Virus record (IMG/VR): IMGVR_UViG_3300007515_000003
Coordinates: 1 to 64,000 of that record
Strand: one strand, 5' to 3'
Source: a virus
DNA length: 64,000 nucleotides
The notes under the pieces were generated by a model. The model was not told the origin of the DNA, did no database searches, and worked only from the letters and a program-made list of their open reading frames with translations. The position numbers were made by a program, and so were the translations under genes. Below, piece by piece: positions 35,151-49,943 of this stretch (positions within the stretch are counted from its first letter, which is position 1; each line of letters begins with the position of its first letter).

Positions 35151-35177
35151 CTCCCCCCCCGGGGGGTAAGTTCTTGA
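35151..35177. repeat. GC-cored repeat, half copy (R1)
   Basis: A C-run/G-run core is followed by a right arm GGTAAGTTCTTGA, but the left arm is missing. Four bases later an arm-like word CAACGACTTAC follows in the opposite orientation. Confidence 0.55.
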
Positions 35178-35369
35178 GGCCCAACGACTTACAACTTTGT
35201 AACGAAAAAAATCTCCCTTAGTAAATGATTACCAAGTGTTTACGCATAAAAAAAAGTCGAGAATTGGTTTTTGCCCGTTTTTCCTCCGCACGACATGAAA
35301 AAAAACTTCTTTTTTTTCTCGTTGAATACCAATGAGTTACGCATATGCTACTGCTTAAAATACGAATAA

Positions 35370-35399
35370 GCTCGTAAAATGTCAGATTTCTGTCATAAT
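35370..35399 (+). promoter_or_regulatory. leaderless promoter, GCTCGT-N18-CATAAT
   Basis: Six bases separate the -10 box from the ATG at 35406. The -35 differs from the TTGACA type and matches the promoter at 37046-37075, which has the same N18 spacer. Both share about 190 bases of related upstream DNA. Confidence 0.5.
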
Positions 35400-35405
35400 A
35401 AGGGT

Positions 35406-35711
35406 ATGAAAATTGAGAAAGACTTCTCCCACATCGCTGAGGCAATCGCCTTGGCTAACGCCAGCAACAACGCAGTTGCTCCACAGTTCGCTGACTTGCT
35501 CGCTGACCTACAAGGTCAAAAGCTTGCCGAAGATTTCACGGTTGAGCATGGCACGCAACACGCTTCAGATGATGAGGTGAAAGCCGAGTTCGTTTCCCTC
35601 GATGCAGTCGAGTCCGACAAGGACGACATCGACGAGAACGACGAGAATCTCGTTGATATGGATTGCGTAAGCGGTTCATTCGCTGACCTTTTCGACACTA
35701 TCGAAAGCTAA
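35406..35711 (+). CDS. acidic small protein, copy A
   Basis: 101 residues starting MKIEKDFSHIAEAIALANA. The ATG at 35406 is chosen because a leaderless promoter ends 6 bases before it and because copy B (39445) starts at the same residue. The C-terminal half is strongly acidic (Asp/Glu runs), as in DNA-mimic or protein-masking phage proteins; this role is only a suggestion. Residues 24-72 are nearly identical to copy B. Confidence 0.8.
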   Translation: MKIEKDFSHIAEAIALANASNNAVAPQFADLLADLQGQKLAEDFTVEHGTQHASDDEVKAEFVSLDAVESDKDDIDENDENLVDMDCVSGSFADLFDTIES

Positions 35712-35715
35712 GAAA

Positions 35716-35862
35716 ATGGACATCATAGACCACTGGCTCGACTTGCTCAACTTTGGTTCAGATACCGAGAAGGCTGAAGCCTTTGACCAACTGCAAGCAA
35801 TGGGCTACTTTACGCCAGACGATGAGCCAGAAACTTGGTGGCTCGATTCATCAGCCGAATAA
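35716..35862 (+). CDS. small acidic protein
   Basis: 48 residues (MDIIDHWLDLLNFGSDTEKA...), acidic, with a Trp-Trp near the end. It follows copy A by 4 bases in the same operon. Unknown function. Confidence 0.65.
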   Translation: MDIIDHWLDLLNFGSDTEKAEAFDQLQAMGYFTPDDEPETWWLDSSAE

Positions 35863-35893
35863 CTTTAATTAATAATAAAAACACAAAAAAATT

Positions 35894-36046
35894 ATGTTCA
35901 GAATAGAATCAATTCCTTTCGCCTCAAAATCTGGTTGGGTTATCGAATCCATCCCAATGCTGAAGAAGCAAGCTGAGAAGCTTTACCGCTCTCGTGTTGC
36001 CAATGCCACAGGAGCAAGACGCTTTCGCCTTGTCAAAGTTAAATGA
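35894..36046 (+). CDS. small basic protein
   Basis: 50 residues (MFRIESIPFASKSG...), basic C-terminus (ARRFRLVKVK). The ATG has no Shine-Dalgarno but the A-rich context AAAAAAATTATG that recurs at five other starts. Its TGA overlaps the next ATG (ATGA). Confidence 0.65.
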   Translation: MFRIESIPFASKSGWVIESIPMLKKQAEKLYRSRVANATGARRFRLVKVK

Positions 36047-36162
36047 GTACAACGCAACCAAAAATCCGTCTAAAGGTTTTGTTTACCAAGTCAAGACCTC
36101 ACAAGGTCAAGCGTAATACTCTACCACGCAAGGCCAAACACAAGCAACGCATTACTGCATAA
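36043..36162 (+). CDS. very basic 39-residue protein
   Basis: About one third Lys/Arg, one possible nucleic-acid-binding peptide. ATG overlaps the upstream stop by 4 bases. Too short for the usual ORF limit but coupled on both sides. Confidence 0.55.
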   Translation: MSTTQPKIRLKVLFTKSRPHKVKRNTLPRKAKHKQRITA

Positions 36163-36163
36163 G

Positions 36164-36238
36164 ATGATTGAAAGCATACTAATAGCTGGGCTAATACTAC
36201 TGTTTCCCATTATACTCTGCTCGCTGAGACCTCACTAA
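36164..36238 (+). CDS. tiny single-span membrane peptide (MIESILIAGLILLF...)
   Basis: 24 residues, almost all one hydrophobic helix, ending SLRPH. It starts 1 base after the upstream stop and is the last gene before repeat R2. Similar tiny peptides close other cassettes at 37672, 41377, 44868 and 50030. Confidence 0.6.
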   Translation: MIESILIAGLILLFPIILCSLRPH

Positions 36239-36250
36239 GCTACTGAGTAG

Positions 36251-36297
36251 CAAAGACTTACGAGCCGGCCGGCAGCCCCTGTATACGTAACTCGTTG
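36251..36297. repeat. GC-cored inverted repeat R2
   Basis: Arms CAAAGACTTACG and CGTAACTCGTTG around a 23-base GC-rich core. Outer bases TGAGTA/TACTCA extend the pairing. It starts the 137-base unit that ends at the ATG at 36388. Confidence 0.8.
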
Positions 36298-36352
36298 GTA
36301 CTCATGCCCTTAGCATACGAGTATAGTGCAAAACATTAGTTGAATCTTAGCC

Positions 36353-36381
36353 TTGACAAATGGCTCTTTCTGTGGTATCTT
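36353..36381 (+). promoter_or_regulatory. leaderless promoter TTGACA-N17-TATCTT
   Basis: Six bases to the ATG at 36388. Upstream sequence shared with the promoters at 39182 and 40183. Confidence 0.75.
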
Positions 36382-36387
36382 ATAGGT

Positions 36388-36804
36388 ATGAATAACAATA
36401 AGAACATAAACCTAGATGTGTTGAAGATAGTACTGGATGCAACCACTCCAGCCAACCTTGCGAAGATAAATGTTTCGGGTGACTTCAATCTAGTACCAAC
36501 GCCATTGACTCGTGACCAAGCCTGTGCAGCTAAGCGTATGCACGCACGCTGGCAAGCTCACACTACTGGCAACACCTATGTGCTTTATGTTCAGAACAGA
36601 ACTTGCGACCATGCCTTTAGGGTAGTAGGTCACGGCAAGAACCCTTGGCAGGCTGTGCTACGCTACTACAAGGGTCTTGATAACAAGGGCAGTTGGATAT
36701 GGCAATGCACTAAGGTGGTTGCAGTATACTCTTGCGTATGTGACAAGTCCACTCAGGCAGGCGATCTGCTCGCTGGTCAAGCTCAAGACAGAGCTCCTTG
36801 GTAG
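36388..36804 (+). CDS. unknown 138-residue protein
   Basis: Begins MNNNKNINLDVLKIVLDA; the middle has an aromatic, Cys-containing beta-like region (TYVLYVQNRTCDHAFRVVGH). Start fixed by the leaderless promoter; an upstream in-frame extension would read through the promoter. Family not recognised. Confidence 0.75.
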   Translation: MNNNKNINLDVLKIVLDATTPANLAKINVSGDFNLVPTPLTRDQACAAKRMHARWQAHTTGNTYVLYVQNRTCDHAFRVVGHGKNPWQAVLRYYKGLDNKGSWIWQCTKVVAVYSCVCDKSTQAGDLLAGQAQDRAPW

Positions 36805-36805
36805 T

Positions 36806-36854
36806 CAAGGACTTACGCCACCGGCCCCCTCCGGGCGGGCCCCCTATGTCCTTG
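36806..36854. repeat. GC-cored inverted repeat R3
   Basis: Arms CAAGGACTTACG and CCTATGTCCTTG with a 25-base core of C and G runs. The right arm is followed by an arm-like word (CAGCAGGTTACAG). Confidence 0.75.
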
Positions 36855-37126
36855 GTGCTCAGCAGGTTACAGTTTTTTAACGAAAAATATCTCCCTAAGT
36901 ACTTGATGCTCTGTTAGTTACGCATAAAAAAAAGTCGAGATGAGATTTTTTCCGCAATTACATAAAAAAAAGTTAAAAAAAAATGCATTTTCTTCTCGCT
37001 GATAATCAACAACTTAGGACAATAATCTTCTCTTTTGAAAAAAAAGCTCGTCTTTTCGTCAAATTCTGTCATAATGGGAACCATAGACAATCGAGAAAGA
37101 CTTTAACCCAAAAACCAAAAAAAATT
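36855..37126 (+). other. A-rich regulatory region without a gene
   Basis: Contains TTACGCATAAAAAAAAGTCG at 36918, also found at 35240, then oligo-A tracts and the GCTCGT-N18-CATAAT promoter. The whole stretch is a diverged copy of 35161-35399. No coding frame is supported. Confidence 0.6.
37046..37075 (+). promoter_or_regulatory. promoter GCTCGT-N18-CATAAT with a leader
   Basis: Same boxes and spacing as 35370-35399, but here about 45 bases of leader follow, including ACAATCGAGAAAG (37087-37099), a word shared with other leaders. Confidence 0.5.
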
Positions 37127-37360
37127 ATGCACGGCATTACAATACTAATTCACGAATTCAACTCCTTTGTTTCTGTCAAGATTCTAGATGGAGGCTTGTT
37201 TCCACGAGTCCGCACAACTGGACGCCTTGACGGATTGTACAAGATTCTCAAAAATGAGCTTGCCCACTTCAAGGAAATGGGAATCGAAGTTTCCTTCGCT
37301 CGAAAGAACGCAGGAAAGTTTGGCGGTATCAAATGGAAAGACATTGCGAAACTTCGCTAA
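37127..37360 (+). CDS. unknown 77-residue basic protein
   Basis: MHGITILIHEFNSFVSVKIL... with a basic C-terminal half. Start context AAAATTATG. No recognised family. First gene of a three-gene cassette. Confidence 0.7.
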   Translation: MHGITILIHEFNSFVSVKILDGGLFPRVRTTGRLDGLYKILKNELAHFKEMGIEVSFARKNAGKFGGIKWKDIAKLR

Positions 37361-37368
37361 AAAAACCC

Positions 37369-37397
37369 TTGACAAAAACCACTTTTTAGAATAAAAT
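37369..37397 (+). promoter_or_regulatory. promoter TTGACA-N17-TAAAAT
   Basis: Eleven bases to the ATG at 37409, so a leader of about 5 bases is predicted. Confidence 0.7.
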
Positions 37398-37408
37398 AAT
37401 AGAATAAA

Positions 37409-37663
37409 ATGATAGAAATTACATACATCCTCCACAATCTAGATCGAGATGGCAATCGTTTAGACATTAAAAACCAACTCTTGCGAAAAGATATGTTTGA
37501 GAACGAGCAAGCTTGCTTTGATGCTTGGGCTTACTTAAAAGATCGAACAGAAGTTGAGATTCGCTCGACTAGAGAATTGACCCAAGAAGAGGTTGACCTT
37601 AAAGTCGCAACCGCTCGCAGAATTGCCTCCGATTATCGCCCCGGCGTTTATAACGGAGATTAA
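37409..37663 (+). CDS. unknown 84-residue protein
   Basis: MIEITYILHNLDRDGNRLDI... Mixed charge, one helix-rich segment (TQEEVDLKVATARRIA). Own promoter. Unknown function. Confidence 0.7.
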   Translation: MIEITYILHNLDRDGNRLDIKNQLLRKDMFENEQACFDAWAYLKDRTEVEIRSTRELTQEEVDLKVATARRIASDYRPGVYNGD

Positions 37664-37671
37664 ACAAACTA

Positions 37672-37758
37672 ATGACTGATCTAATCATAATGTTGCTCGC
37701 CTTGCTTGTGGTCACCAATCTGTGGTGTTGCTTGGTTTGGCTGATATCGGGTTCCTAA
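37672..37758 (+). CDS. tiny single-span membrane peptide (MTDLIIMLLALLVV...)
   Basis: 28 residues with one hydrophobic helix containing Cys-Cys. Last gene before repeat R4, 8 bases after the upstream stop. Confidence 0.6.
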   Translation: MTDLIIMLLALLVVTNLWCCLVWLISGS

Positions 37759-37770
37759 GCCCCTAATAAC

Positions 37771-37817
37771 CAAAGACTTACGCGCCGGCGGCGTCCCCCC
37801 GTCTCCGTAAGTCCTTG
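37771..37817. repeat. GC-cored inverted repeat R4
   Basis: Arms CAAAGACTTACG and CGTAAGTCCTTG; core CGCCGGCGGCG plus a C-run. It lies 133 bases before the next ATG. Confidence 0.8.
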
Positions 37818-37868
37818 AATGGCAATAGGTTACAGAGTAAAAAAAGTGAAAAAAAGTGAAAAAAAAAC

Positions 37869-37897
37869 TTGACTTTCTCTGCTTTCTGTGCTATTGT
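37869..37897 (+). promoter_or_regulatory. leaderless promoter TTGACT-N17-TATTGT
   Basis: Six bases to the ATG at 37904. Preceded by repeated AAAAAAAGTGA. Confidence 0.75.
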
Positions 37898-37903
37898 ATA
37901 GGT

Positions 37904-38083
37904 ATGATTAAGATTGAAAAAGACGATATCGTTCTCGACCGTTTCGGCGGTTTGTTTGTTGTGCTTGGCACAATCCAAAGCGGAGAGCTTGCAGAAGTTC
38001 GCCGTTGGGGAAGTTCCCAAATCTTTCACCTTGTCGTCGGCGACTTCGGCGACTCTCGTGGGCTTCGTAAAGTCGTGCAATAA
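37904..38083 (+). CDS. small protein related to the product at 39217
   Basis: 59 residues. MIKIEKDDIVLDRFGGLFVV parallels MIKNKDVVVDRRGRIFQVV at 39217: a beta-rich SH3-like layout. Unknown function. Start set by the leaderless promoter. Confidence 0.75.
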   Translation: MIKIEKDDIVLDRFGGLFVVLGTIQSGELAEVRRWGSSQIFHLVVGDFGDSRGLRKVVQ

Positions 38084-38120
38084 GGCACAAACAAAAGTAG
38101 AATAATGCAAAAGAAAAAGC

Positions 38121-38149
38121 TTGCAATTATCGCAAAACTGGTTTAGTAT
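38121..38149 (+). promoter_or_regulatory. leaderless promoter TTGCAA-N17-TAGTAT
   Basis: Six bases to the ATG at 38156. The -35 is weaker than the TTGACA type. Confidence 0.65.
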
Positions 38150-38155
38150 ATAGGT

Positions 38156-38431
38156 ATGATTAAGATAAAAAAAGACTTCTGGACACAGAAAAATGTCCCC
38201 ATGATTCACTTTCGCCAAGCGAAAATCCAAATGACCCTTGCCAATGGCGATAAGCTTGGCACGGTTCAAACTTTGCCGTTCCAAAAGAACGCACCAAGCA
38301 AAGGGCAATGGTTCGCCAAGGTTTCTGATGTTTGGGATGTCGCAGACATTTCTTTCCGTGATCTTGGCGTACAGTCTTGCGTTGCTCCAAAAGGTCACAT
38401 CGCTTGGAATCTCGTAGGAAAGGGAGTTTAA
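38156..38431 (+). CDS. unknown 91-residue protein
   Basis: MIKIKKDFWTQKNVPMIHF..., with WFAKVSDVWDVADISFRDLG near the C-terminus. Its TAA overlaps the next ATG (TAATG). Family not recognised. Confidence 0.75.
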   Translation: MIKIKKDFWTQKNVPMIHFRQAKIQMTLANGDKLGTVQTLPFQKNAPSKGQWFAKVSDVWDVADISFRDLGVQSCVAPKGHIAWNLVGKGV

Positions 38432-38661
38432 TGTTAAAAAGATTCTTTTTTCAAACTCTTTTACGAACTCGCTACTTTGTGGGCTTTTCAAAGGTGAAAT
38501 ACTTTTGGAGCTTAAAATCTGCCGAGGACTTCGCAAGAAATTGCAAAGATCTTGGAAAAACAACTGTCTGGCGTAAAGATCACAAAAGAATGTTTACTCA
38601 CAACAATCTTGTCGATTACTCACTCCACGAGGACGCAAAAAACTTTTCAACCTATCACTAA
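38431..38661 (+). CDS. unknown 76-residue basic protein
   Basis: MLKRFFFQTLLRTRYFVGFS... Basic and aromatic. A Shine-Dalgarno AGGGAG precedes the ATG and the start overlaps the upstream stop. Unknown function. Confidence 0.7.
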   Translation: MLKRFFFQTLLRTRYFVGFSKVKYFWSLKSAEDFARNCKDLGKTTVWRKDHKRMFTHNNLVDYSLHEDAKNFSTYH

Positions 38662-38669
38662 AAAAACGC

Positions 38670-38698
38670 TTGACAAAAACGCAAAAATCTGACAAAAT
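38670..38698 (+). promoter_or_regulatory. leaderless promoter TTGACA-N17-CAAAAT
   Basis: Six bases to the ATG at 38705. Confidence 0.7.
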
Positions 38699-38704
38699 AA
38701 AAGC

Positions 38705-38875
38705 ATGATTAGAATAATTCAAAACCCAAATCTCAAAAACTGGTTTTCTCTCATTAGTGGCGAAACGCTACTTGACCAAATCAAGGGAAAAGCTAACGCA
38801 TTGAAAATCGCTCGCAAGATTGCAAGAGCCGAAGGCAAAATGATTTCCGAAGAGTTTAACGCAAACAAAAAATAG
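38705..38875 (+). CDS. unknown 56-residue protein
   Basis: MIRIIQNPNLKNWFSLISGE..., then a basic helix. Start set by the leaderless promoter. Two bases separate it from the next gene. Confidence 0.65.
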   Translation: MIRIIQNPNLKNWFSLISGETLLDQIKGKANALKIARKIARAEGKMISEEFNANKK

Positions 38876-38877
38876 AA

Positions 38878-39075
38878 ATGTACATTCCACAAACTCCAGC
38901 ACTAATTGATGCAAAAATTGCACAAAAGAAAAAAGCCCTTTCCGAGTGGAAGGAAAAACTGAATAAGTCACGCAAACAGTCGTTTCTTGTAGCTAGAGCC
39001 TTGCAGGTCAAAACGCTAGAAGAAGAACTGCAAACACTGCGAGCGGTTCGAGCGGTACGGCTCACAAGGTGCTAA
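38878..39075 (+). CDS. basic coiled-coil protein
   Basis: 65 residues, Lys/Arg-rich with heptads (LEEELQTLRAVRAVRL). Last gene before repeat R5. Unknown function. Confidence 0.65.
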   Translation: MYIPQTPALIDAKIAQKKKALSEWKEKLNKSRKQSFLVARALQVKTLEEELQTLRAVRAVRLTRC

Positions 39076-39079
39076 TAGT

Positions 39080-39126
39080 CAACGACTTACGCGCCGGCGG
39101 GCCCCCGGCGTTAGCGTAACTCATTG
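39080..39126. repeat. GC-cored inverted repeat R5
   Basis: Arms CAACGACTTACG and CGTAACTCATTG; core CGCCGGCGGGCCCCCGGCG. The core is nearly identical to R6, and the left arm is 137 bases before the ATG at 39217. Confidence 0.85.
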
Positions 39127-39181
39127 AAGACCAAGGAGTTAACGTGAGAGAATCGTGCAAAACATTAGTTGAAAGTTAGCC

Positions 39182-39210
39182 TTGACAAACAGGTGTTTCT
39201 GTGGTATAGT
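39182..39210 (+). promoter_or_regulatory. leaderless promoter TTGACA-N17-TATAGT
   Basis: Six bases to the ATG at 39217. Part of the 137-base repeat-promoter unit. Confidence 0.75.
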
Positions 39211-39216
39211 ATAGGT

Positions 39217-39390
39217 ATGATTAAAAACAAAGATGTAGTAGTAGACCGCAGAGGTCGCATTTTTCAAGTTGTCGATGCAGACTTTAAGACTGACCGACTA
39301 GGCAAACAAATCCTTTGCCGTTTGTACCGTTCGCAAAAGCGTTTCGCTTTCATGCCTTGGCAGGTAAAAAAGCATCCGTTTTTCTCTTGA
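39217..39390 (+). CDS. small basic protein, paralog of 37904 product
   Basis: 57 residues, beta-rich, basic, same opening pattern as the product at 37904. Start set by the promoter. Unknown function. Confidence 0.75.
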   Translation: MIKNKDVVVDRRGRIFQVVDADFKTDRLGKQILCRLYRSQKRFAFMPWQVKKHPFFS

Positions 39391-39409
39391 AAATAATTGA
39401 AAAAAAAAC

Positions 39410-39438
39410 TTGACTTTTCCTTAAAAATAGATTAAATT
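39410..39438 (+). promoter_or_regulatory. leaderless promoter TTGACT-N17-TAAATT
   Basis: Six bases to the ATG at 39445. Confidence 0.7.
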
Positions 39439-39444
39439 GTAGAT

Positions 39445-39744
39445 ATGAAAATTGAAAAAGACCTCTCTCACATCGCCGAAGCTGTCGCTTTGGCTAACGC
39501 CAACGGAAACAAAGTTTCCGACCAGTTCGCTGACTTGCTCGCCGACCTACAAGGTCAAAAGCTTGCCGAAGACTTTACGGTTGAGCATGGAACGCAACAC
39601 GCTTCAGATGATGAAGTGAAAGCCGAGTTCGTTTCTCTCGATGCAGTTGAAAATGACAACGAAGACGACGATTTCGACAATGATGAAAACCTCGTTGACA
39701 TGAGTCAAATCTCTGGCTCGATGCGTGAAATCTTTGGAGAGTAA
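39445..39744 (+). CDS. acidic small protein, copy B
   Basis: 99 residues. Residues 24-72 nearly match copy A at 35406 (FADLLADLQGQKLAEDFTVE conserved), while the acidic tail has diverged. Copies A and B use different promoters. A gene duplication within this arm. Confidence 0.8.
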   Translation: MKIEKDLSHIAEAVALANANGNKVSDQFADLLADLQGQKLAEDFTVEHGTQHASDDEVKAEFVSLDAVENDNEDDDFDNDENLVDMSQISGSMREIFGE

Positions 39745-39751
39745 AAAAATT

Positions 39752-40087
39752 ATGAGAAAAGTCACAGAACAAATCAAGCAAGCCTTTGAGCAAGGCGAAT
39801 CTAAAAAAGTCGGAAACACCGAGACGGATGGAACAAGCGTTTTCTTGCATGGGAATGAAATTGTTCGCCGTGATGTGAGCGGTTTGGTCTTTGCTACGCT
39901 CGCAGGTTGGAACACTCCAACCACGAGAGAAAGAGTCAACGGAATCACAGGAATGGGCTTTCATCAGGTCAACCATCAGGCTTGCCTAAATGGTGAACCG
40001 ATTGACTCATCCGACTGGTTCGTCAAGACTGCTCAAGGTGATTCGCAAGCGTTGCCACCACCGCCTAAGTCACTGACTGTCAGCTAG
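39752..40087 (+). CDS. unknown 111-residue protein
   Basis: MRKVTEQIKQAFEQGESKKV..., with LHGNEIVRRDVSGLVFATLA GWNTPTTRERVNG. The pattern (HGNxI, then WNTPTTRERVN) is seen in small phage proteins of unknown role. Start context AAAAAAATTATG. Last gene before R6. Confidence 0.7.
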   Translation: MRKVTEQIKQAFEQGESKKVGNTETDGTSVFLHGNEIVRRDVSGLVFATLAGWNTPTTRERVNGITGMGFHQVNHQACLNGEPIDSSDWFVKTAQGDSQALPPPPKSLTVS

Positions 40088-40127
40088 TTACGGGCCGGCG
40101 GGCCCCCGGCGTTAGCGTAACTCATTG
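40081..40127. repeat. GC-cored inverted repeat R6
   Basis: Arms CAGCTAGTTACG and CGTAACTCATTG; the core differs from R5 by one base at its start. It overlaps the last codons of the upstream gene. Left arm 137 bases before the ATG at 40218. Confidence 0.85.
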
Positions 40128-40182
40128 AAAACCAAGGAGTTAGCGCGAGAGAATTGTGCAAAACGTTAAGCGAATCTTAGCC

Positions 40183-40211
40183 TTGACAAAAGGGCTTTTC
40201 TGTGGTATTGT
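40183..40211 (+). promoter_or_regulatory. leaderless promoter TTGACA-N17-TATTGT
   Basis: Six bases to the ATG at 40218. Confidence 0.75.
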
Positions 40212-40217
40212 ATAGGT

Positions 40218-40718
40218 ATGATTAAGAGAAAAACTAAAGCTTTCGTTTTTGACTTTGACGACACTCTTGCGTTCACCGATGCAAGAGTTCATGTGCTGAG
40301 TCGGTTCAAGAGTCAAGTGGTCGCAAGCTTGACCCCTAAACAGTTCAATGATGTAAAATTAAAGGAAGGCGAAAGCTTCGACTTCTCAGACTTCGACAGG
40401 GCAAGCTTTATCCGTGACGGCAAACCAAGCAAGCTAATTGACTTGGCAAAAGATGTTTTTGAAGAAGGGCATTCTGTGTTTATCTTAACTGCTCGCAACG
40501 ATTGCGTTTCTTCTGCGATTGCTGAATGGCTTACAGACTTCGGCATTGTTGCCAGAGAAGTCCATTGCGTAGGCGAAAAAGATACAGACATTGCAAAAGC
40601 AAAAAGACAAGTCTTGCTTGCAATCATTGAAAACTTTGACAAGGTTTGGTTTTTCGATGATGATGCTCGAAACATTGAGCTTGCCCAAGAGCTAAACCTT
40701 AAAGCTAAAAAAGTGTAA
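40218..40718 (+). CDS. HAD-family phosphatase
   Basis: 166 residues. HAD motif I FDFDDTL (residues 11-17), motif II/III around ILTAR and the Lys in the KAKRQ helix, and acidic motif IV FFDDDARNI. It would be a small phosphohydrolase, perhaps acting on a nucleotide or on nucleic-acid ends as T4 Pnkp-type phosphatases do, but the substrate is unknown. Confidence 0.8.
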   Translation: MIKRKTKAFVFDFDDTLAFTDARVHVLSRFKSQVVASLTPKQFNDVKLKEGESFDFSDFDRASFIRDGKPSKLIDLAKDVFEEGHSVFILTARNDCVSSAIAEWLTDFGIVAREVHCVGEKDTDIAKAKRQVLLAIIENFDKVWFFDDDARNIELAQELNLKAKKV

Positions 40719-41376: not shown

Positions 41377-41487
41377 ATGAGAGAATATAGAAATCTAATC
41401 ATCTGCGGAATCTTATACTGCGCAGTCGCCACGCTAATGGTCGCAGGGTTTTACCTTGGTTGCCTTCTCAGCGTCGCAACTAACTGA
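41377..41487 (+). CDS. tiny membrane peptide (MREYRNLIICGILYC...)
   Basis: 36 residues with a long hydrophobic helix containing three Cys. Last gene before repeat R7. Confidence 0.6.
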   Translation: MREYRNLIICGILYCAVATLMVAGFYLGCLLSVATN

Positions 41488-41491
41488 TTGC

Positions 41492-41538
41492 CAAAGAGTT
41501 ACGCTTGGCCGGGCTCCCCCCTAAGTCATAAGTCGTTG
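41492..41538. repeat. GC-cored inverted repeat R7
   Basis: Arms CAAAGAGTTACG and CATAAGTCGTTG with core CTTGGCCGGGCT plus a C-run. Confidence 0.8.
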
Positions 41539-41679
41539 ATACTCATACTGTTATGACCCAGAATGATTCGAGATGAATATTTGACCCTATTTGGCTTCAA
41601 AAATCAAGTAATTTCTCTATTTCTATTTAATTGATTATCAATAGTTTATAACTATTTTTATTCATTTGTAAAAAAGTGT

Positions 41680-41708
41680 TTGACTCAAAATGAGATTTAG
41701 TCTATTAT
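41680..41708 (+). promoter_or_regulatory. promoter TTGACT-N17-TATTAT
   Basis: Ten bases to the ATG at 41719. It would drive the small ORF, the tmRNA-like RNA and the 106-residue gene as one transcript. The 140 bases upstream are AT-rich without a gene. Confidence 0.7.
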
Positions 41709-41718
41709 AGTAGGCATA

Positions 41719-41868
41719 ATGAAAAACGGAATAAGTCTCACCAAAAAGGAACTTCAAGAAATCATCGACCAAAATGTCGGTGACGCAAACGAGGGTTGTG
41801 TTCAGTCTCAACAGATTGTTGTCCACGCCCAATGGCTATTGGATAGGATTGCCAACCAATGGGGATGA
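41719..41868 (+). CDS. 49-residue protein overlapping the tmRNA-like RNA
   Basis: MKNGISLTKKELQEIIDQNV..., plausible helical protein with a promoter correctly placed. Its last codons and TGA are the first 8 bases of the RNA domain (GGGGATGA). Processing of the RNA would cut this mRNA. Confidence 0.55.
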   Translation: MKNGISLTKKELQEIIDQNVGDANEGCVQSQQIVVHAQWLLDRIANQWG

Positions 41869-41933
41869 TTGGATTCGATTTGCACTGCTTCATCGGGGCA
41901 AAGACTGCGGTTCAACTCCGCACATCTCCACCA
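41861..41933 (+). ncRNA. tmRNA tRNA-like-domain minigene (no tag region)
   Basis: 73 nt. Acceptor stem GGGGATG (41861-41867) pairs with CATCTCC (41923-41929) with G3-U70, the alanine identity pair; discriminator A and an encoded CCA follow (41930-41933). The T arm TGCGG-TTCAACT-CCGCA is perfect. The D side has no D-stem but carries GATTGGATTCGA, matching the universal GGATTCGA of tmRNA 5' ends. A 5-bp stem TTTGC/GCAAA closes a 14-nt loop exactly where a tmRNA would have its long pseudoknot and tag insert. It therefore looks like the aminoacylatable half of tmRNA alone. SmpB binding and charging are predictions. A tRNA is less likely: no D-stem, no regular anticodon arm. Confidence 0.7.
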
Positions 41934-41946
41934 ATTTTTAAGAATT

Positions 41947-42267
41947 ATGAGTAAAAATAAAAACAAAAATATTGCACTAATCGACGAGAAATGGGAAGCA
42001 ATTGGACATTCAATGAACATCTCAAACGAGGCTTGCTCAAGGTTATTCAATGAGGTTTTGATTCCGCTTTCTGGAATGCAAGGCAAATTGAAGTTTGCCA
42101 CAGGCAAAAGTGTGGTCGATGAATCCGTTGACTGCATAGAAAACAAGTCAGTTCGCCGTACAGTTGCCGAAGTCAGAGACGGCATTTCAGGACTCCGTGA
42201 GATAGTCAAAGATATATCTCAAAGTCTCAGAGAGCAATCGGAAAAATACATTCGCGCAAATCCTTAA
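41947..42267 (+). CDS. unknown 106-residue helical protein
   Basis: MSKNKNKNIALIDEKWEAIG..., then helical (VAEVRDGISGLREIVKDISQ). Starts 13 bases after the tmRNA-like RNA, context AAGAATTATG. Last plus-strand gene; the convergent arm begins 118 bases on. Confidence 0.7.
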   Translation: MSKNKNKNIALIDEKWEAIGHSMNISNEACSRLFNEVLIPLSGMQGKLKFATGKSVVDESVDCIENKSVRRTVAEVRDGISGLREIVKDISQSLREQSEKYIRANP

Positions 42268-42271
42268 GCAT

Positions 42272-42319
42272 CAGCGACTTACGCTACAAGGGGGGACCCC
42301 GGCCCGTCGTAAGTCATTG
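42272..42319. repeat. GC-cored inverted repeat R8
   Basis: Arms CAGCGACTTACG and CGTAAGTCATTG; G-run/C-run core. Lies at the junction of the two convergent arms. Confidence 0.8.
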
Positions 42320-42353
42320 ACCTACAACGGGTAACAGGCTAACCAATAATAAA

Positions 42354-43605: not shown

Positions 43606-43637
43606 GCTTTTTCTTTCGCTCGCAACATACTGAAGCT

Positions 43638-43684
43638 CAACGACTTACGCTGACGCCGGGGGCCGGCCCAGCCCTAAGTCCTTG
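43638..43684. repeat. GC-cored inverted repeat R9
   Basis: Arms CAACGACTTACG and CCTAAGTCCTTG; core CTGACGCCGGGGGCCGGCC. Confidence 0.8.
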
Positions 43685-43685
43685 A

Positions 43686-43853
43686 CTATCTGCCGTTTAG
43701 GATTCTCAAGAGATGCTCGTAAGCTGGCAAGCCTGAGTTTAACCCATGAGCAACCCATTTTCCCTTTTCTTTACGGTAAAGCAAATCCCATTTGCAAGCG
43801 TAATCATGCACTCGCATTAGACCATTGGGCAAGATTTCAGTTCGGTATCTCAA
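43686..43853 (-). CDS. unknown 55-residue protein, TTG start
   Basis: The TTG overlaps the TGA of the Gp88-like gene (TTGA) and has AGGAAGGG 8 bases upstream. An internal ATG would give 43 residues. Basic, with HDYACKWDLLYRKEKGKW. Last gene before repeat R9. Unknown function. Confidence 0.6.
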   Translation of the reverse strand: MRYRTEILPNGLMRVHDYACKWDLLYRKEKGKWVAHGLNSGLPAYEHLLRILNGR

Positions 43854-44572
43854 GAGTTTATCCCTTCCTGTACGAATCCTGTCTCATCCTTTTTTGCCAT
43901 ACCCTTTTCGATAAGCCCGACAATAACGCCTTGCTTGTCACGGAAACGCAAATCACTTTCATCGCCATTGATAACTTCGTGACCTTTCCAAGTTTTAGGT
44001 AACCTATCACGGAAAACCACGGCGACATTTCCACCCATTTGCAAAACCATATCGCAAAGCGTATCGTTATGCTCTGAGCGAGAAAAAGTCAAATGATAGT
44101 TGCTCGGAAAATCCTTAGCTTGATTGACGAACTTTGCCATGCGTTGAAACGACTTGGTATAATCATAAAATTGCGTTTCGGGAAACTTTTGCATAAGCGT
44201 TTGACCATTTGCATCTTCAATGTTTTCCCATTCCAAATCGCTTGTGAGATTAGGGCGAAAAACCGCAGTCATTTCTTTCTTAACTGCTGACTTAATGCCT
44301 GAAGCAATTTCCTTTGCGAGCTTTTCCATGAACGCAAGCTTTTGTTCAAAGAATAACTTTGTCTTGGCAATGCGAGAGTCTTGGATTTTGTCCATTCGTC
44401 CACGACCAGCAGTATTCAAGCAAGCCATCGTGCAACCTTTGCTTCTCCATTGGCAAGCTTCGTACCCCGAAAGATTTGCTGGAGCAAGATGAATGCCCTT
44501 AGTCATGAAGCCAAAAGCTTCGCCTTTTACGATTTTGGCATTTCCTGCCGTGAGTAGAGTTGTCTTAATCAT
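43850..44572 (-). CDS. Gp88-family phage protein
   Basis: 240 residues. The opening NAKIVKGEAFGFMTKGIHLA, then LSGYEACQWRSKGCTMACLNTAGRGR, matches mycobacteriophage Gp88-type proteins (PF17338). The conserved Cys set suggests a metal or iron-sulfur site; function is not known. Leaderless promoter lies in the 3' end of the upstream small gene. Confidence 0.8.
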   Translation of the reverse strand: MIKTTLLTAGNAKIVKGEAFGFMTKGIHLAPANLSGYEACQWRSKGCTMACLNTAGRGRMDKIQDSRIAKTKLFFEQKLAFMEKLAKEIASGIKSAVKKEMTAVFRPNLTSDLEWENIEDANGQTLMQKFPETQFYDYTKSFQRMAKFVNQAKDFPSNYHLTFSRSEHNDTLCDMVLQMGGNVAVVFRDRLPKTWKGHEVINGDESDLRFRDKQGVIVGLIEKGMAKKDETGFVQEGINS

Positions 44573-44734: not shown

Positions 44735-44740
44735 GCCTTA

Positions 44741-44769: not shown

Positions 44770-44815
44770 GCCTTTTTTTAAAATAAAATCAAAAGAAATC
44801 TAAACCCCTCTAGAC

Positions 44816-44863
44816 CAAGGACTTACGGACCGGCGGGGAGGCCGCCCGGGCCGTAACTCGTTG
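44816..44863. repeat. GC-cored inverted repeat R10
   Basis: Arms CAAGGACTTACG and CGTAACTCGTTG; core GACCGGCGGGGAGGCCG. Confidence 0.8.
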
Positions 44864-44867
44864 ATAC

Positions 44868-44957
44868 TCAGCTACCTACAGCGTGCACATAAACGCACAG
44901 GCTAGTATAAGTAGCAAAGGCAACTGCTATAAATATATATAATAGTCTATTTGTCAT
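44868..44957 (-). CDS. tiny single-span membrane peptide (MTNRLLYIFIAVAF...)
   Basis: 29 residues with one hydrophobic helix. ATG is inside the end of the upstream gene (11-base overlap). Last gene before R10, matching the plus-strand cassettes although on the other strand. Confidence 0.6.
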   Translation of the reverse strand: MTNRLLYIFIAVAFATYTSLCVYVHAVGS

Positions 44958-45132: not shown

Positions 45133-45136
45133 AATT

Positions 45137-45594: not shown

Positions 45595-45601
45595 ACCTAT
45601 A

Positions 45602-45630
45602 ATACTATACTAGAATGGATTTCGTGTCAA
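45602..45630 (-). promoter_or_regulatory. leaderless promoter TTGACA-N17-TAGTAT
   Basis: Seven bases to the ATG at 45594. Lies directly downstream of the U-run of the small RNA. Confidence 0.75.
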
Positions 45631-45640
45631 GGGTTTTTTT

Positions 45641-45765
45641 AAAAAAAGTGTCCCGTGCTGTGCCACATGACTGCACCCAGATTTATGAAGGTTGCGAGCC
45701 TTCTGTCTTGAGGGGTTTATGTCTCAAGTCTGACACGGGACTGAAATTGTGTTAAAATAATTATA
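45641..45765 (-). ncRNA. branched small RNA with its own promoter and terminal U-run
   Basis: No coding frame. Closing stem GTCCCGTG (45650-45657, plus-strand coordinates) with CACGGGAC (45734-45741). Inside are hairpins CTTGAG/CTCAAG, GAAGG/CCTTC and GTGC/GCAC, giving a multi-branched fold. On the minus strand the closing stem is followed by AC and seven T, a terminator-like end. It matches no RNA family I recognise. It could be a regulatory RNA, a riboswitch-like sensor or a decoy. Confidence 0.6.
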
Positions 45766-45770
45766 CCTAT

Positions 45771-45799
45771 AAGTATGACAGAATGAGCCGTGAAGTCAA
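45771..45799 (-). promoter_or_regulatory. promoter TTGACT-N17-ATACTT for the small RNA
   Basis: Same architecture as the leaderless promoters, but the position that would be ATG reads ATA, consistent with a non-coding transcript. Confidence 0.65.
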
Positions 45800-45904
45800 G
45801 CTTTTTTTTCATTTTTTATGTCGATGCTTTGCTGTTTTGTAAACACGTTTCTCAAATGTGTCGATGAGATAAACATAAGTTTGGTGTTGCAAGTCCCTAA
45901 TACC

Positions 45905-45951
45905 CAACGACTTACGCTGAAGCGGGGAGCCGGCCCCGTCATAAGTCATTG
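45905..45951. repeat. GC-cored inverted repeat R11
   Basis: Arms CAACGACTTACG and CATAAGTCATTG; core CTGAAGCGGGGAGCCGGCC. Confidence 0.8.
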
Positions 45952-45962
45952 ATAGTCAACGA

Positions 45963-46006
45963 CAAAAAAAACTCCCCTCGATCCTTATATTTGACCGAGG
46001 GAAGTT
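45963..46006 (-). terminator. rho-independent terminator after the DUF932-like gene
   Basis: An 11-bp stem (AACTTCCCTCG with CGAGGGGAGTT, one G-U) followed by eight T on the minus strand. It ends transcription of 46049-46828 before R11. Confidence 0.8.
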
Positions 46007-46048
46007 TCTTATTTAAGAGCTGTATTTGACCCCTTTTCGTTTCAATTT

Positions 46049-46828
46049 CTAGTTGGATTCAACTCCTGCAACAGGGTCAAAAGCATTATGGAAAATCTCA
46101 GAACGCTTAGGCAAGTGCATTACATTGCGTCCTTTGGACACTTCCGTGAACGCATTGTATAGCGAATTAAGATTGCGGTCTTGAAAGACCTTGTGGTCAG
46201 AATCTTTCCATTGCTCCCAAGCTTGAGCTAGGGTGGATTGACCAATTAAGTTGGTCTTGATTCCTGCCTCGTAGACATCGAAGATGAGGTGTTGAGCTTG
46301 CCTATCATTCAAAGGAATATCCCTATAAGCTTCGACTCGCTTATCTTGATGCTCCCACATGGGCAATAAAGCCTTGACAATATCATCCACTCTCTTGAGT
46401 AGCTCTTGCTTTACTTCGCCTATGTGCTTGCGAGTAAAGACGACATCGTTATGAAAAACGAGATTGTCACAAATAAATGGTGCTTCACCTGCACACAATC
46501 CTGCTGCGAAAAGCTTATCGTGCGAGTTACGCATACCGACAACTGTTCCTCTATCCGAACCAACACGATTTGGATGAACAACTTGAAACATTCCGAAATA
46601 ATGGTCGGCTTGCTTACCAAGATTGTGGCATTCATTTACGATTTCAAAACCCGATTCTTCAAGGTTGTTGCGAGTTACATCGACAACAGTTGCGTGAGGA
46701 ATTGGTTTCCAACGATTAGTTTCCTTGGGAGTCGGAACACGACGAACGGTATCCAAATCCACAACGGAACTTTTTGCTCCACAAATGCGGAGGTTCAACT
46801 TAGGAGTTTCTGCTATTGTATCTGTCAT
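46049..46828 (-). CDS. DUF932-type phage/plasmid protein
   Basis: 259 residues from ATG 46828 (context AAAAAATTATG); a longer TTG start would include the leader. The block MFQVVHPNRVGSDRGTVVGM, then AGEAPFICDNLVFHNDVVF, and the C-terminal helices match DUF932 proteins found on phages and plasmids (function unknown). Monocistronic, with a leader and a clear terminator. Confidence 0.75.
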   Translation of the reverse strand: MTDTIAETPKLNLRICGAKSSVVDLDTVRRVPTPKETNRWKPIPHATVVDVTRNNLEESGFEIVNECHNLGKQADHYFGMFQVVHPNRVGSDRGTVVGMRNSHDKLFAAGLCAGEAPFICDNLVFHNDVVFTRKHIGEVKQELLKRVDDIVKALLPMWEHQDKRVEAYRDIPLNDRQAQHLIFDVYEAGIKTNLIGQSTLAQAWEQWKDSDHKVFQDRNLNSLYNAFTEVSKGRNVMHLPKRSEIFHNAFDPVAGVESN

Positions 46829-46868
46829 AATTTTTTGAGTTTCTATTTTTATCAATTGTTAAGCTATA

Positions 46869-46897
46869 AGTATAGGTGAAAATATGTTAAAAGTCAA
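46869..46897 (-). promoter_or_regulatory. promoter TTGACT-N17-TATACT with a leader
   Basis: About 34 bases of leader to the ATG at 46828, starting TTAACAATTGA, a variant of the shared leader word. Confidence 0.7.
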
Positions 46898-46900
46898 GCA

Positions 46901-47143
46901 TTAATTTTGCTCAAATGGCTTTTTTTCTTGCCCATTGAATCCAGTCATGTTCTCGTAGCATTGAGCCTTTTGGGCAATTTGCTGAAGGGTAATTCCAACC
47001 ATGCCAATAGTCTCACTTTCCTCATCACTTAGCTCACCTTCTACTGGCTTAATGCAAATCTCCCATAGCACATCCATGCACATCTTCATGATGTTCTCTG
47101 CGTTCAAGTTTTCGTCCGAGGCTTCGTTATTCAATATATTCAT
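46901..47143 (-). CDS. unknown 80-residue acidic protein
   Basis: MNILNNEASDENLNAENIMK..., helical, two Cys. Leadered promoter upstream. No recognised family. Confidence 0.65.
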   Translation of the reverse strand: MNILNNEASDENLNAENIMKMCMDVLWEICIKPVEGELSDEESETIGMVGITLQQIAQKAQCYENMTGFNGQEKKPFEQN

Positions 47144-47179
47144 TTTTTCTTCAATCCTTTCTCAATTATCAATACAAGT

Positions 47180-47208
47180 ATTCTAGAGGAAAACTAGGGT
47201 AATTGCAA
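47180..47208 (-). promoter_or_regulatory. promoter TTGCAA-N17-TAGAAT with a leader
   Basis: About 30 bases of leader to the ATG at 47143, containing GATAATTGAGAAAGGA. Confidence 0.6.
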
Positions 47209-47260
47209 GCATAAAATCACTAAAACTAACATTTTTTTTAATGCTTATGTTGCTCTAGGT

Positions 47261-47306
47261 CAATAACTTACGACGGGCCCGGGGGCCCGCCAGCTAAAGT
47301 GAATTG
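47261..47306. repeat. GC-cored inverted repeat R12 (right arm degenerate)
   Basis: Left arm CAATAACTTACG, perfect inner palindrome-like core CGGGCCCGGGGGCCCG, weak right arm. Confidence 0.65.
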
Positions 47307-47384
47307 ATTGAGAGCCAAGTCGCCACACTTGGTGAAGCTTTCAAGGGTTAACCTACTAGGCGTAGTACTGCCTCTCAAAATCAA
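47304..47384. other. branched inverted-repeat element next to R12
   Basis: Outer stem TTGATTGAGAG (47304-47314) with CTCTC-AA-AATCAA (47372-47384), inner hairpins CCAAG/CTTGG and TACT-AGGCG-TAGTA-type pairing. It follows the last gene of a minus operon, so it may be a 3' UTR structure or a separate RNA. No clear promoter or U-run was found. Confidence 0.45.
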
Positions 47385-47395
47385 TAGATAGATAA

Positions 47396-47560
47396 TTAAG
47401 CGAAGATCCGCTTCTCTAGTTTATACAGCTGCTCAAGTAGATTGTCGTGCTCCTTTTTCTTCAAAGCCCAATCCTGACAATATGCTCCTGACTCCTCAGC
47501 CAATGCCAGCTCATAACCGAGCTGGCGAATCTTGGCTAAGAGAGTATAGTGCCGTGCCAT
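47396..47560 (-). CDS. unknown 54-residue coiled-coil protein
   Basis: MARHYTLLAKIRQLGYELAL..., a single charged helix. Three bases after the upstream stop. More GC-rich in its codons than neighbours. Confidence 0.65.
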   Translation of the reverse strand: MARHYTLLAKIRQLGYELALAEESGAYCQDWALKKKEHDNLLEQLYKLEKRIFA

Positions 47561-47562
47561 AA

Positions 47563-47775
47563 TTAGCTTACGACTGTTACCAACCTATCGTAGCGAAACC
47601 TACGATAACCTTCACGGTTGTGGCAATATGCCGTGAATCCGACAATGTTCTGACCTTCATTGGCATTGCCAAATTGGTCTTCTTGTACTGGCTTATCGAC
47701 AGTATACAGTTCCGTTCTTCCGTCGGAAGTCTTGTATACGACTTGCCATCGTGTTGCGTTCTTGTTATTCTTCAT
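47563..47775 (-). CDS. unknown 70-residue protein
   Basis: MKNNKNATRWQVVYKTSDGR..., beta-rich. ATG 47775 has GGAAAAG in front and overlaps the upstream gene by 11 bases; an alternative ATG at 47793 has no ribosome site. Confidence 0.65.
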   Translation of the reverse strand: MKNNKNATRWQVVYKTSDGRTELYTVDKPVQEDQFGNANEGQNIVGFTAYCHNREGYRRFRYDRLVTVVS

Positions 47776-48034
47776 TTTCTTTTCCAGTTTCATATTCGTT
47801 TATATCTTTTTTAGATTCTTGTTCTTTGGTTTCGTAAAGTTCTAATGATTGCTTGAGAGTTGCTTGGGCTTCTTCCAAAGTGTCAAATGGAATACAAATC
47901 AATTCTTGCTCCAAATTATATGGGCAATACTCTTGCTTCTCAGCAAAATATAAATCCCATGTTCCAGTATCGTCATCGTATTCTGGGCGATTAAGTGGTG
48001 GAAGTTCACAGTATTCTTGAATATAATTAAGCAT
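47765..48034 (-). CDS. unknown 89-residue acidic protein
   Basis: MLNYIQEYCELPPLNRPEYD..., acidic, with a helical C-terminus. Overlaps the genes on both sides by about 10 bases. Confidence 0.7.
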   Translation of the reverse strand: MLNYIQEYCELPPLNRPEYDDDTGTWDLYFAEKQEYCPYNLEQELICIPFDTLEEAQATLKQSLELYETKEQESKKDINEYETGKENEE

Positions 48035-48206
48035 TGCGATTAAACTCTTGAGCCTTTCTGACTTTTTGCGTCACCATTACATTTGGGTCGTACAAGGATT
48101 CAACGAGAGGTTTGTTTCCCGTGTGAGAATACTTCTTGCACATATCGTGAAGTTGTTTGTGTTTTACTGGGTCTGAAACGCCCTTTTGTTTTGCTTCCTT
48201 ACTCAT
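48027..48206 (-). CDS. unknown 59-residue basic protein
   Basis: MSKEAKQKGVSDPVKHKQLH..., basic. TAATG overlap with the upstream stop and an 8-base overlap downstream support it. Confidence 0.65.
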   Translation of the reverse strand: MSKEAKQKGVSDPVKHKQLHDMCKKYSHTGNKPLVESLYDPNVMVTQKVRKAQEFNRNA

Positions 48207-48427
48207 TAAAATAATCCTACTACTCCGTATTCAACCTCGACTTGCTCAAGAAAATTATCTGCACAAGTTTCAACTGCGTTTTCATAAGCAACGCCATCTA
48301 TGTCATCGCTTTCGTTAAAATAATCAAAGAAGGGAAAATCCGCAAGGTCGTGAACGCTTATGCCAAGCTTCATCATAACCTTTGAATCTACATCTTCAAC
48401 GAACTGTTCTATCGTGTTTTTAATCAT
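48206..48427 (-). CDS. unknown 73-residue acidic protein
   Basis: MIKNTIEQFVEDVDSKVMMK... Start set by the leaderless promoter; the long upstream frame extension is not coding. First gene of a five-gene operon down to 47396. Confidence 0.7.
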   Translation of the reverse strand: MIKNTIEQFVEDVDSKVMMKLGISVHDLADFPFFDYFNESDDIDGVAYENAVETCADNFLEQVEVEYGVVGLF

Positions 48428-48433
48428 GCTATA

Positions 48434-48462
48434 ATTATCGCACATTTTCGTTTCTTTGTCAA
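48434..48462 (-). promoter_or_regulatory. leaderless promoter TTGACA-N17-GATAAT
   Basis: Six bases to the ATG at 48427. Confidence 0.75.
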
Positions 48463-48470
48463 GGGTTAAA

Positions 48471-48695
48471 TTAATCTTTGCTTGCATCCATCCAAGCCCG
48501 ATTGTAAACCTCTTCGGGATGATGAAAATACCTATCGGAATCATTTGTCTTTTTATCTTCAGCAAAGCAATCAACAACGATTTGGCAAAGGTCATCAATG
48601 TTGTCGTTTGTAATTTCGTACTCTCTATCCAGTAAAGGGTTCATGTACGCAATGATGTTCTCTTGGATTTGTTCTTTTATCTCTTCGTTTGTCAT
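48471..48695 (-). CDS. unknown 74-residue acidic protein
   Basis: MTNEEIKEQIQENIIAYMNP..., then DRYFHHPEEVYNRAWMD. ATGA overlap with the upstream gene. Confidence 0.65.
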   Translation of the reverse strand: MTNEEIKEQIQENIIAYMNPLLDREYEITNDNIDDLCQIVVDCFAEDKKTNDSDRYFHHPEEVYNRAWMDASKD

Positions 48696-48931
48696 AAAAC
48701 TTTTGCACCCACTTTGTAAACCGACCAATTTCCATTACAATAAGGATAAGAACCTTCTGCCCAACTTACTGCACCATCAATGGAGCGAAAATAAATCGGT
48801 GATTCGGAAGGACTATCATCGTCAACGAGTGCGTATACTCCTTCTGCTATGTCGCAAGGTTCAGTCATCCTTTCTCGCTCAAACTGAGACTTAATTTCCA
48901 TGTAATCATGTCCGTCTATGCAATAATTCAT
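48692..48931 (-). CDS. unknown 79-residue protein
   Basis: MNYCIDGHDYMEIKSQFERE..., aromatic-rich C-terminus. One base after the upstream stop. No recognised family. Confidence 0.65.
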   Translation of the reverse strand: MNYCIDGHDYMEIKSQFERERMTEPCDIAEGVYALVDDDSPSESPIYFRSIDGAVSWAEGSYPYCNGNWSVYKVGAKVL

Positions 48932-48932
48932 C

Positions 48933-49343
48933 TTACCACCAAGAGTTGTAGTAAACCTTCTTGCCATCTGCGATTGCCTTGCGAGCATCTTGAATGAACT
49001 TCAAGTCAGTCAACTTGTAATGGTAGTCATTATCACCATAAGGATTTCCATCGGCATCTTCCCAAGCAAATGAATCGTCTCCGAAGAAAAACCCACCTGT
49101 TTCTGGCAATGCCTTGTTCGCTACATGAGCCTCAAGTTGTTCTAGGTCTGACTCGCTGAGTTCAAGCTCAACGCAATTAAAATCGTTGCCAATTCCACTA
49201 TCGGAATCACTAACGGCATTTCCCTTGTCTCGAAACAAGTCTTCCATCCATCCGTGAAGACGATTGTGCTTACGCCAGTAAGCGAGTTCTTCTTGCTCTG
49301 AATCCTCAGAGGTCTTTGCGTATCCGTATTGGTCTAATCCCAT
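48933..49343 (-). CDS. conserved phage protein, MGLDQY type
   Basis: 136 residues. MGLDQYGYAK and AYWRKHNRLHGWMEDLF form a signature I recognise from many phage proteins of unknown role (sometimes misnamed as enzymes). First gene of a three-gene operon with a leadered promoter. Confidence 0.75.
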   Translation of the reverse strand: MGLDQYGYAKTSEDSEQEELAYWRKHNRLHGWMEDLFRDKGNAVSDSDSGIGNDFNCVELELSESDLEQLEAHVANKALPETGGFFFGDDSFAWEDADGNPYGDNDYHYKLTDLKFIQDARKAIADGKKVYYNSWW

Positions 49344-49378
49344 TTTTTATCTTTCTCTTTCTCGATTGTTAAGCCTTA

Positions 49379-49407
49379 ATTTTGACAGAAAAATGCCCTA
49401 AAGTCAA
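49379..49407 (-). promoter_or_regulatory. promoter TTGACT-N17-CAAAAT with a leader
   Basis: About 30 bases of leader to the ATG at 49343, starting TTAACAATCGAGAAAG. Confidence 0.7.
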
Positions 49408-49416
49408 GCTTTTTTT

Positions 49417-49827
49417 TTAGATTGCAAGAACTTCTTTTGTATAAAACTTCACGAACGAAGCGAACCATCTTGGTTTTTGCGTACTCACATCAACAAAAGA
49501 TGAATGCTTGTAAGGATTGTATGTGATAGCAGTCATTTCCCACCATCCTATGTCATCCCAGCACGCAAATGAAGGATCAGGATGAGCGATGTATCCGCTG
49601 ATGCCTGCATGGACATTTTTCCTTTTCTCCCGAAGAACCCTTTCTCTCCCTTTCGTGTTCACCTTCATCATTGCTGAATATAAATGTATTGGTTTTCCGT
49701 CAGAATGAGCCTTAACGAGACCGTCTTGCTTGATGCTCCAACAATCCTTGTGGAGATTCTTATAGACAAAAACCTTTTTGCTTTCATCCAGTTTATACCT
49801 TGGGTCTTCTTGTTTTAATTTAATCAT
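49417..49827 (-). CDS. unknown 136-residue basic protein
   Basis: MIKLKQEDPRYKLDESKKVF..., with many Trp and His in the C-terminal half (CWDDIGWWEMTAITYNPY). No recognised family. Leaderless promoter. Confidence 0.7.
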   Translation of the reverse strand: MIKLKQEDPRYKLDESKKVFVYKNLHKDCWSIKQDGLVKAHSDGKPIHLYSAMMKVNTKGRERVLREKRKNVHAGISGYIAHPDPSFACWDDIGWWEMTAITYNPYKHSSFVDVSTQKPRWFASFVKFYTKEVLAI

Positions 49828-49834
49828 ACCTTTA

Positions 49835-49863
49835 ATACTAGACTACTTTCATGGGCGTGTCAA
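49835..49863 (-). promoter_or_regulatory. leaderless promoter TTGACA-N17-TAGTAT
   Basis: Seven bases to the ATG at 49827. Confidence 0.75.
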
Positions 49864-49895
49864 GCTTTTTTTTACACCCGTAAACCACTGCTCCC

Positions 49896-49943
49896 CAAAG
49901 AGTTACGCATAAAGGGGGAGGCCGGCGCCGTCGTAAGTCGTTG
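49896..49943. repeat. GC-cored inverted repeat R13 (last copy)
   Basis: Arms CAAAGAGTTACG and CGTAAGTCGTTG; core with G-run and GGCCGGCGCCG. No further copy was seen to the right. Confidence 0.8.

Follow-up and report, generated by a model that had tools for sequence, protein, structure and literature searches.

A polar four-arm repeat at the ends of early transcription units in large aquatic phages, a possible protein-bound boundary

The window analysed here, a 64,000-nucleotide stretch (positions 1–64,000) of the 98,823-bp IMG/VR record IMGVR_UViG_3300007515_000003, belongs to a large tailed phage in which RIIA was recognized by similarity to annotated homologues, and RIIB, a PhoH-like protein and an internal virion protein by PHROGs. 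Between 35 and 50 kb it contains an array of early genes separated by copies of a repeat element (Table 1). A single open reading frame of 6,589 amino acids occupies 6805–26574 (minus strand), and 29020–30351 (plus strand) encodes a predicted protein joining sulfotransferase-like and glycosyltransferase-25 domains. Inside the array, a gene segment is duplicated (35405–35608 and 39444–39647, 88% identical) and a 73-nt stretch, 41861–41933, matches the tRNA-like domain only of tmRNA (RF00023, 56.5 bits), with a GGATTCGA D-loop, a G3-U70-like acceptor stem, a T arm, a CCA end and a short loop replacing the mRNA-like domain. ARAGORN reported nothing at this locus, a rescan of 41700–42100 stayed below threshold, and the only copy among relatives is in G008, a 211-kb record about 99.9% identical to the window's phage.

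Table 1 Repeat elements and associated features of the early array
Feature	Position	Strand	Inner-arm start	Remarks
Half copy	35151–35193	+		Remnant GC core and right dyad, common to the following AT-core element
Four-arm element, AT-rich 22-nt core subfamily	35165–35244	+		Score 40.1
81-bp four-arm element, GC core	36234–36314	+	36251	47-mer, 36251–36297
Early promoter TTGACA...TATCTT	36353–36381 (or –36390)	+		Just 3′ of the 36234 element; start codon 6 nt past the −10; read from sequence
Four-arm element, 25-nt GC core	36789–36871	+	36806	
Four-arm element, AT-rich 22-nt core	36843–36922	+		Dyad common to the 36789 copy
81-bp four-arm element	37754–37834	+	37771	
81-bp four-arm element	39063–39143	+	39080	Likeness to the 40064 copy from arm 2 to the next start codon
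81-bp four-arm element	40064–40144	+	40081	
81-bp four-arm element	41475–41555	+	41492	
82-bp four-arm element	42255–42336	.	42272	Convergent gene junction (strand switch)
81-bp four-arm element	43621–43701	-	43638	
GP88-family gene (PF17338)	43850–44572	-		Kept in element arrays of most lineages
82-bp four-arm element	44799–44880	-	44816	
81-bp four-arm element	45888–45968	-	45905	Directly downstream (minus strand) of the intrinsic terminator
Intrinsic terminator, hairpin and T-run	45963–46008	-		Upstream minus-strand unit; ends approximate
DUF932 gene	46049–46855	-		Kept in arrays
Degenerate copy	47244–47327	-	47261	Second inner arm poor
L5 gp82-like gene	49417–49827	-		Kept in arrays
82-bp four-arm element	49879–49960	-	49896	

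The original prediction described a 47-nt inverted repeat. That repeat is real, but it is only the inner half of a larger unit: one more arm lies beyond each inner arm, 5 nt away when read outward from the 47-mer, giving an 81-bp element that runs arm, 5 nt, arm, core of about 23 nt, arm, 5 nt, arm, or CGTAAGTCGTTG-NNNNN-CAACGACTTACG-N23-CGTAAGTCGTTG-NNNNN-CAACGACTTACG in IMG/VR matches. All four arms, inner and outer alike, are copies of one 12-base word with the consensus CAAcGAsTTACg, the inner arms being better conserved (16.6–17.7 bits of information content, as against 12.4–13.5 bits for the outer arms). The 5-nt spacer is constant (275 of 275 dyads), and dyads are nearly absent outside four-arm units. 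Core length is near-constant within a genome and takes values of 13, 18, 20, 21, 23 and 26 nt between genomes; the 5′ half of the core is T-poor and the 3′ half A-poor. The elements are directional, with one inner arm of asymmetric copies ending in TTAGG, and to the right of 42.3 kb they are reverse-complemented together with the genes.

All the predicted copies were recovered above the level of shuffled sequence, eleven of them clean, together with one degenerate copy and the half copy; four-arm model scores in the window are 40–56, compared with 16.6 for the best of 40 dinucleotide shuffles, and its 62 arm matches, against a shuffle mean of 35.6, were reached by none of 100 shuffles. The half copy is present as described, although it proves to be what is left, on the right-hand side, of a GC-core copy whose dyad also belongs to an AT-core element; this composite recurs at 36789–36922. 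The 39063 and 40064 copies are alike from arm 2 onward and unlike upstream. A motif scan found no element in the 98,823-bp record beyond the array, and in G008 elements are confined to the matching array, in agreement with the original observation that the window has none elsewhere.

We compared the letters shared by partner arms with those of shuffled partners, both locally (arms 1–2 and 3–4) and globally (1–4 and 2–3). Within clades, none of these pairs covaried (z = −0.5 for 1–2, −0.7 for 1–4, −2.3 for 3–4 and −3.9 for 2–3), which argues against the arms as the base-paired foot of a cruciform, one of two possibilities raised originally. Because pairing covariation is absent, the arms resemble, as far as sequence can tell, a set of four half-sites recognized in double-stranded DNA rather than a stem that is maintained; the rigid spacing likewise favours the other possibility, that conservation resides in the arms, which a protein probably reads. 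A core hairpin as a selected feature was rejected, the cores having mild dyad symmetry when pooled and no within-clade excess against a conservative null of mixed orientations. A fixed helical phase between the dyads (52 bp, five turns) also fails across genomes: with cores of 13 to 26 nt, such a phase is not universal.

Position was assessed with gene calls from a simple in-house ORF scorer, counting gaps of at least 80 nt in the arrays only; the lineages share ancestry, so the counts are not independent. Elements are intergenic in 138 of 140 cases and occupy 143 of 206 co-directional gaps (69%), 27 of 29 convergent gaps (93%) and 7 of 11 divergent gaps (64%), nearly always as exactly one copy per occupied gap. 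Among co-directional gaps, 31% of those holding an element have an intrinsic terminator, as against 3% (2/63) of those without an element, and 58 of the 60 terminator-bearing gaps hold an element. Copies do mark boundaries as had been proposed, namely those between transcription units. In 43 cases the terminator comes after the upstream gene and before the element, and in 3 it is downstream of the element. This order, together with the lack of a T-run directly after the element hairpin in the consensus flanks, makes intrinsic termination or RNase III-type processing by the element itself, as first suggested, unlikely. In G008, one intrinsic terminator lies in the 15.4-kb, 13-element array, compared with 43 in the remaining approximately 196 kb, none of which (0/43) is near an element.

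Polarity follows transcription in 53 of 66 asymmetric copies (++ 31:3, -- 22:10). Early promoters are situated downstream of the element, ahead of the next start codon, and are often leaderless, with 4–11 nt from the −10 to the start; a strict TTGAC..TANNNT follows 65 of 156 elements, at a median distance of 119 nt to the −35. Start codons 6–7 nt after the −10 imply that early mRNAs are leaderless, an arrangement common in relatives; TTGACA/TATAAT-type early promoters with this spacing are also seen at 39195–39219, 40184–40220 and similar sites. To speak of gene cassettes was an over-reading: the genes form early transcription units of the usual kind, with at least one promoter apiece.

When IMG/VR was searched for the inner pattern, 36 stretches came up, spread over some 20 further viral contigs, and about 150 copies are present in 23 viral contigs (139 scan matches with a 23-nt core); the reversed sequence of these 23 contigs gave 0 copies at the same threshold, and shuffled DNA likewise gave none. 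By nucleotide similarity of the arrays, the array-bearing contigs form six groups or more. The arrays occupy related early regions, and GP88, DUF932 and L5 gp82-like genes mark most groups; around GP88 homologues (38 contigs) the element has a core of 26, 21 or 20–21 nt, and cores of 18 (L179) and 13 nt (L212) were read from sequence. BLAST of the consensus against isolated phages yielded no convincing element, no isolate exceeded 60% identity for the array proteins searched, and the literature searched contained no published description of the element sequence. Scanning 84,980 genomes gave six loci, all in Bacteroidota, with a clear repeat family in one Microscillaceae genome only; the low-scoring chromosomal matches L142, L144 and L145 may be due to chance. 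That genome, MAG Prado074 (G024; L140, L141 and L143), carries scattered dyads of the form TAASTNNYTG-ATWAT-CARNNASTTA, putative kin of the phage element, with 25 matches to a three-arm pattern (0 in the control) and three Y1 transposase matches. Tight tandem dyads with a period of about 26 nt and no GC core occur in other viral contigs, L120, L125, L126, L129, L132 and L139, some of them of jumbo size; those of L129 lie beside DnaA-box-like TTATCCACA repeats, which suggests an origin.

The element is inherited vertically. At orthologous gaps with at least 90% identity it is shared in 78 cases and discordant in 1 (78/79), and many of the discordances at 70–90% identity involve L203 and L209, which retain a shortened element. 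The expectation that relatives keep it at the same junctions thus stands at high identity, but not in L204 and L189, which have no hairpin at the orthologous junction, or in L180, L186 and L187, which have unrelated ones; the element is therefore not indispensable. The unrelated GC-cored inter-gene hairpins, at the same kind of junction, lie at 66, 1202, 2029, 3722 and 4921 in L180, with others in L186 and L187; sister-phage hairpin sequences include TTGGCA-AAATCGCCCGCCGATTT-TGCCAA and GTTGACC...GGGGCCCC....

Phages are thought to part their transcription units by intrinsic terminators and promoters. The element behaves as a conserved boundary marker, probably read by a putative protein, rather than as an ordinary terminator or a site of recombination. 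Our preferred reading, to which we give a probability of roughly 0.4, is a protein-bound boundary, a polar roadblock or insulator at the ends of early transcription units. A candidate phage or host protein would recognize two 29-bp dyads at a set distance, formed by the four 12-bp half-sites, and the bound complex would separate neighbouring early units, halting RNA polymerase that has read on where the intrinsic terminator is weak or missing and thereby shielding the next strong early promoter. Against this boundary stand the occupied divergent gaps (7 of 11), which lie at no transcript end, as well as the genome-dependent core length and the relatives with unrelated hairpins or none at the orthologous junction. 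A bolder proposal, a dedicated phage boundary system in which a putative protein and the four-half-site element form a polar insulator or roadblock at almost all ends of early units and co-diversify between lineages, is more tentative still.

The main rival, although an unlikely one, is a topological role as proposed for BIMEs, in which the palindromic pair would bind gyrase, topoisomerase or an architectural protein and relieve or confine supercoils between strongly transcribed units. Inverted palindrome pairs between transcription units, an occupancy that peaks at convergent gaps while extending to every gap orientation, and the lack of a promoter- or 3′-end-specific distance are all consistent with it; polarity relative to transcription would not be expected, nor would restriction to one early region with absence from 43 other terminator sites in the same genome. 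Less probable is an attC-like or PeSL-like recombination site that shuffles gene modules. Two 12-bp arms set 5 bp apart, as in each dyad, recall the core pair of a tyrosine recombinase, the two window copies that agree only from arm 2 onward could be read in this way, and T4-like PeSLs adjoin early promoters and mediate gene shuffling, as cited in PMC4503421. Recombination sites would break gene order, however, and adjacency is conserved across elements, at a level matching or exceeding that at other long gaps (49.6% versus 39.8% at 50–80% identity; 93% versus 76% at 80% identity or more); with the gaps themselves conserved and inheritance vertical, the recombination module boundaries envisaged originally are not supported. 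Profiles detected no tyrosine recombinase (PF00589; 39 phage records searched) and no serine recombinase (PF00239; 24 searched), and the arms lack the integron GTTRRRY box. A host recombinase or transposase, or a family missed by the profiles, is possible.

We give still less credence to a REPIN-like miniature mobile repeat with a transposase acting in trans, despite a shared plan of conserved palindromic ends, inverted pairs, a variable spacer of set length and an extragenic location (PMC3116915), the scattered similar dyads and Y1 transposases of the Microscillaceae genome, and the other hairpin families in sister phages. None of 22 phage records has a Y1_Tnp match, such matches being limited to the Microscillaceae genome; presence/absence polymorphism is almost nil, copies typically number one per gap, compensatory changes are missing and the consensus has no GTAG/CGTC tag. 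An RNA hairpin at mRNA 3′ ends, acting in processing, stabilization or factor-dependent termination, seems the least probable of these readings. It would suit the position at transcription-unit ends and the folding of the inner 47-mer, which is better than that of mononucleotide shuffles (mean z −1.76), but the arms do not covary, there is no T-run and, because intrinsic terminators lie upstream, the element would often be untranscribed.

Under the boundary reading, a rigid, polar and conserved element at almost every early-unit end in many uncultured large aquatic phages would represent an additional layer of boundary control. It points to an undiscovered DNA-binding protein and provides a simple signature for locating early regions in such phages.

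Structurally, the closest known systems are the REPIN/BIME repeats and the PeSLs (promoter-early stem-loops) of T4-type phages, and each differs from the element in defining features. With REPINs and BIMEs it has in common inverted pairs of short palindromes, a length-constrained spacer, a strictly intergenic location, many copies per genome and lineage-specific families, and the inverted palindrome doublet with a set-length spacer in extragenic DNA is indeed found here. By definition, one end of a REP sequence bears a GTAG or CGTC tag (PMC3733652); the sense-oriented element consensus has neither. Unlike REPINs, the element comes without a RAYT (Y1) transposase, compensatory changes or mobility, and stays at the same orthologous sites, singly within transcription-unit gaps, in the phage early region only. 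The PeSL loop of T4-type phages terminates transcription and promotes gene shuffling; by that description the element differs, since it comes after distinct terminators and shows no enrichment of shuffling. What the two may share is a stem-loop-like repeat next to early promoters of host type, among small accessory genes (see also PMC4503421). Integron attC sites resemble the element in their inverted box pairs around a variable centre, their place at gene boundaries and their polarity; the element differs in its set-length core, in lacking an R box and, in the phage records, an IntI/tyrosine recombinase, and in the absence of observed cassette mobility. Intrinsic terminators, unlike the element, have a T-run directly after the GC hairpin. 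Stoperators are intergenic and oriented with transcription, as the element is, although a stopping effect is only putative for the latter. In L5-like mycobacteriophages they are many protein-binding sites across the genome that stop transcription elongation, according to PMC9283540. A stoperator is a short, asymmetric single site with a known repressor, whereas the element is an 81-bp unit of four half-sites with a putative reader.
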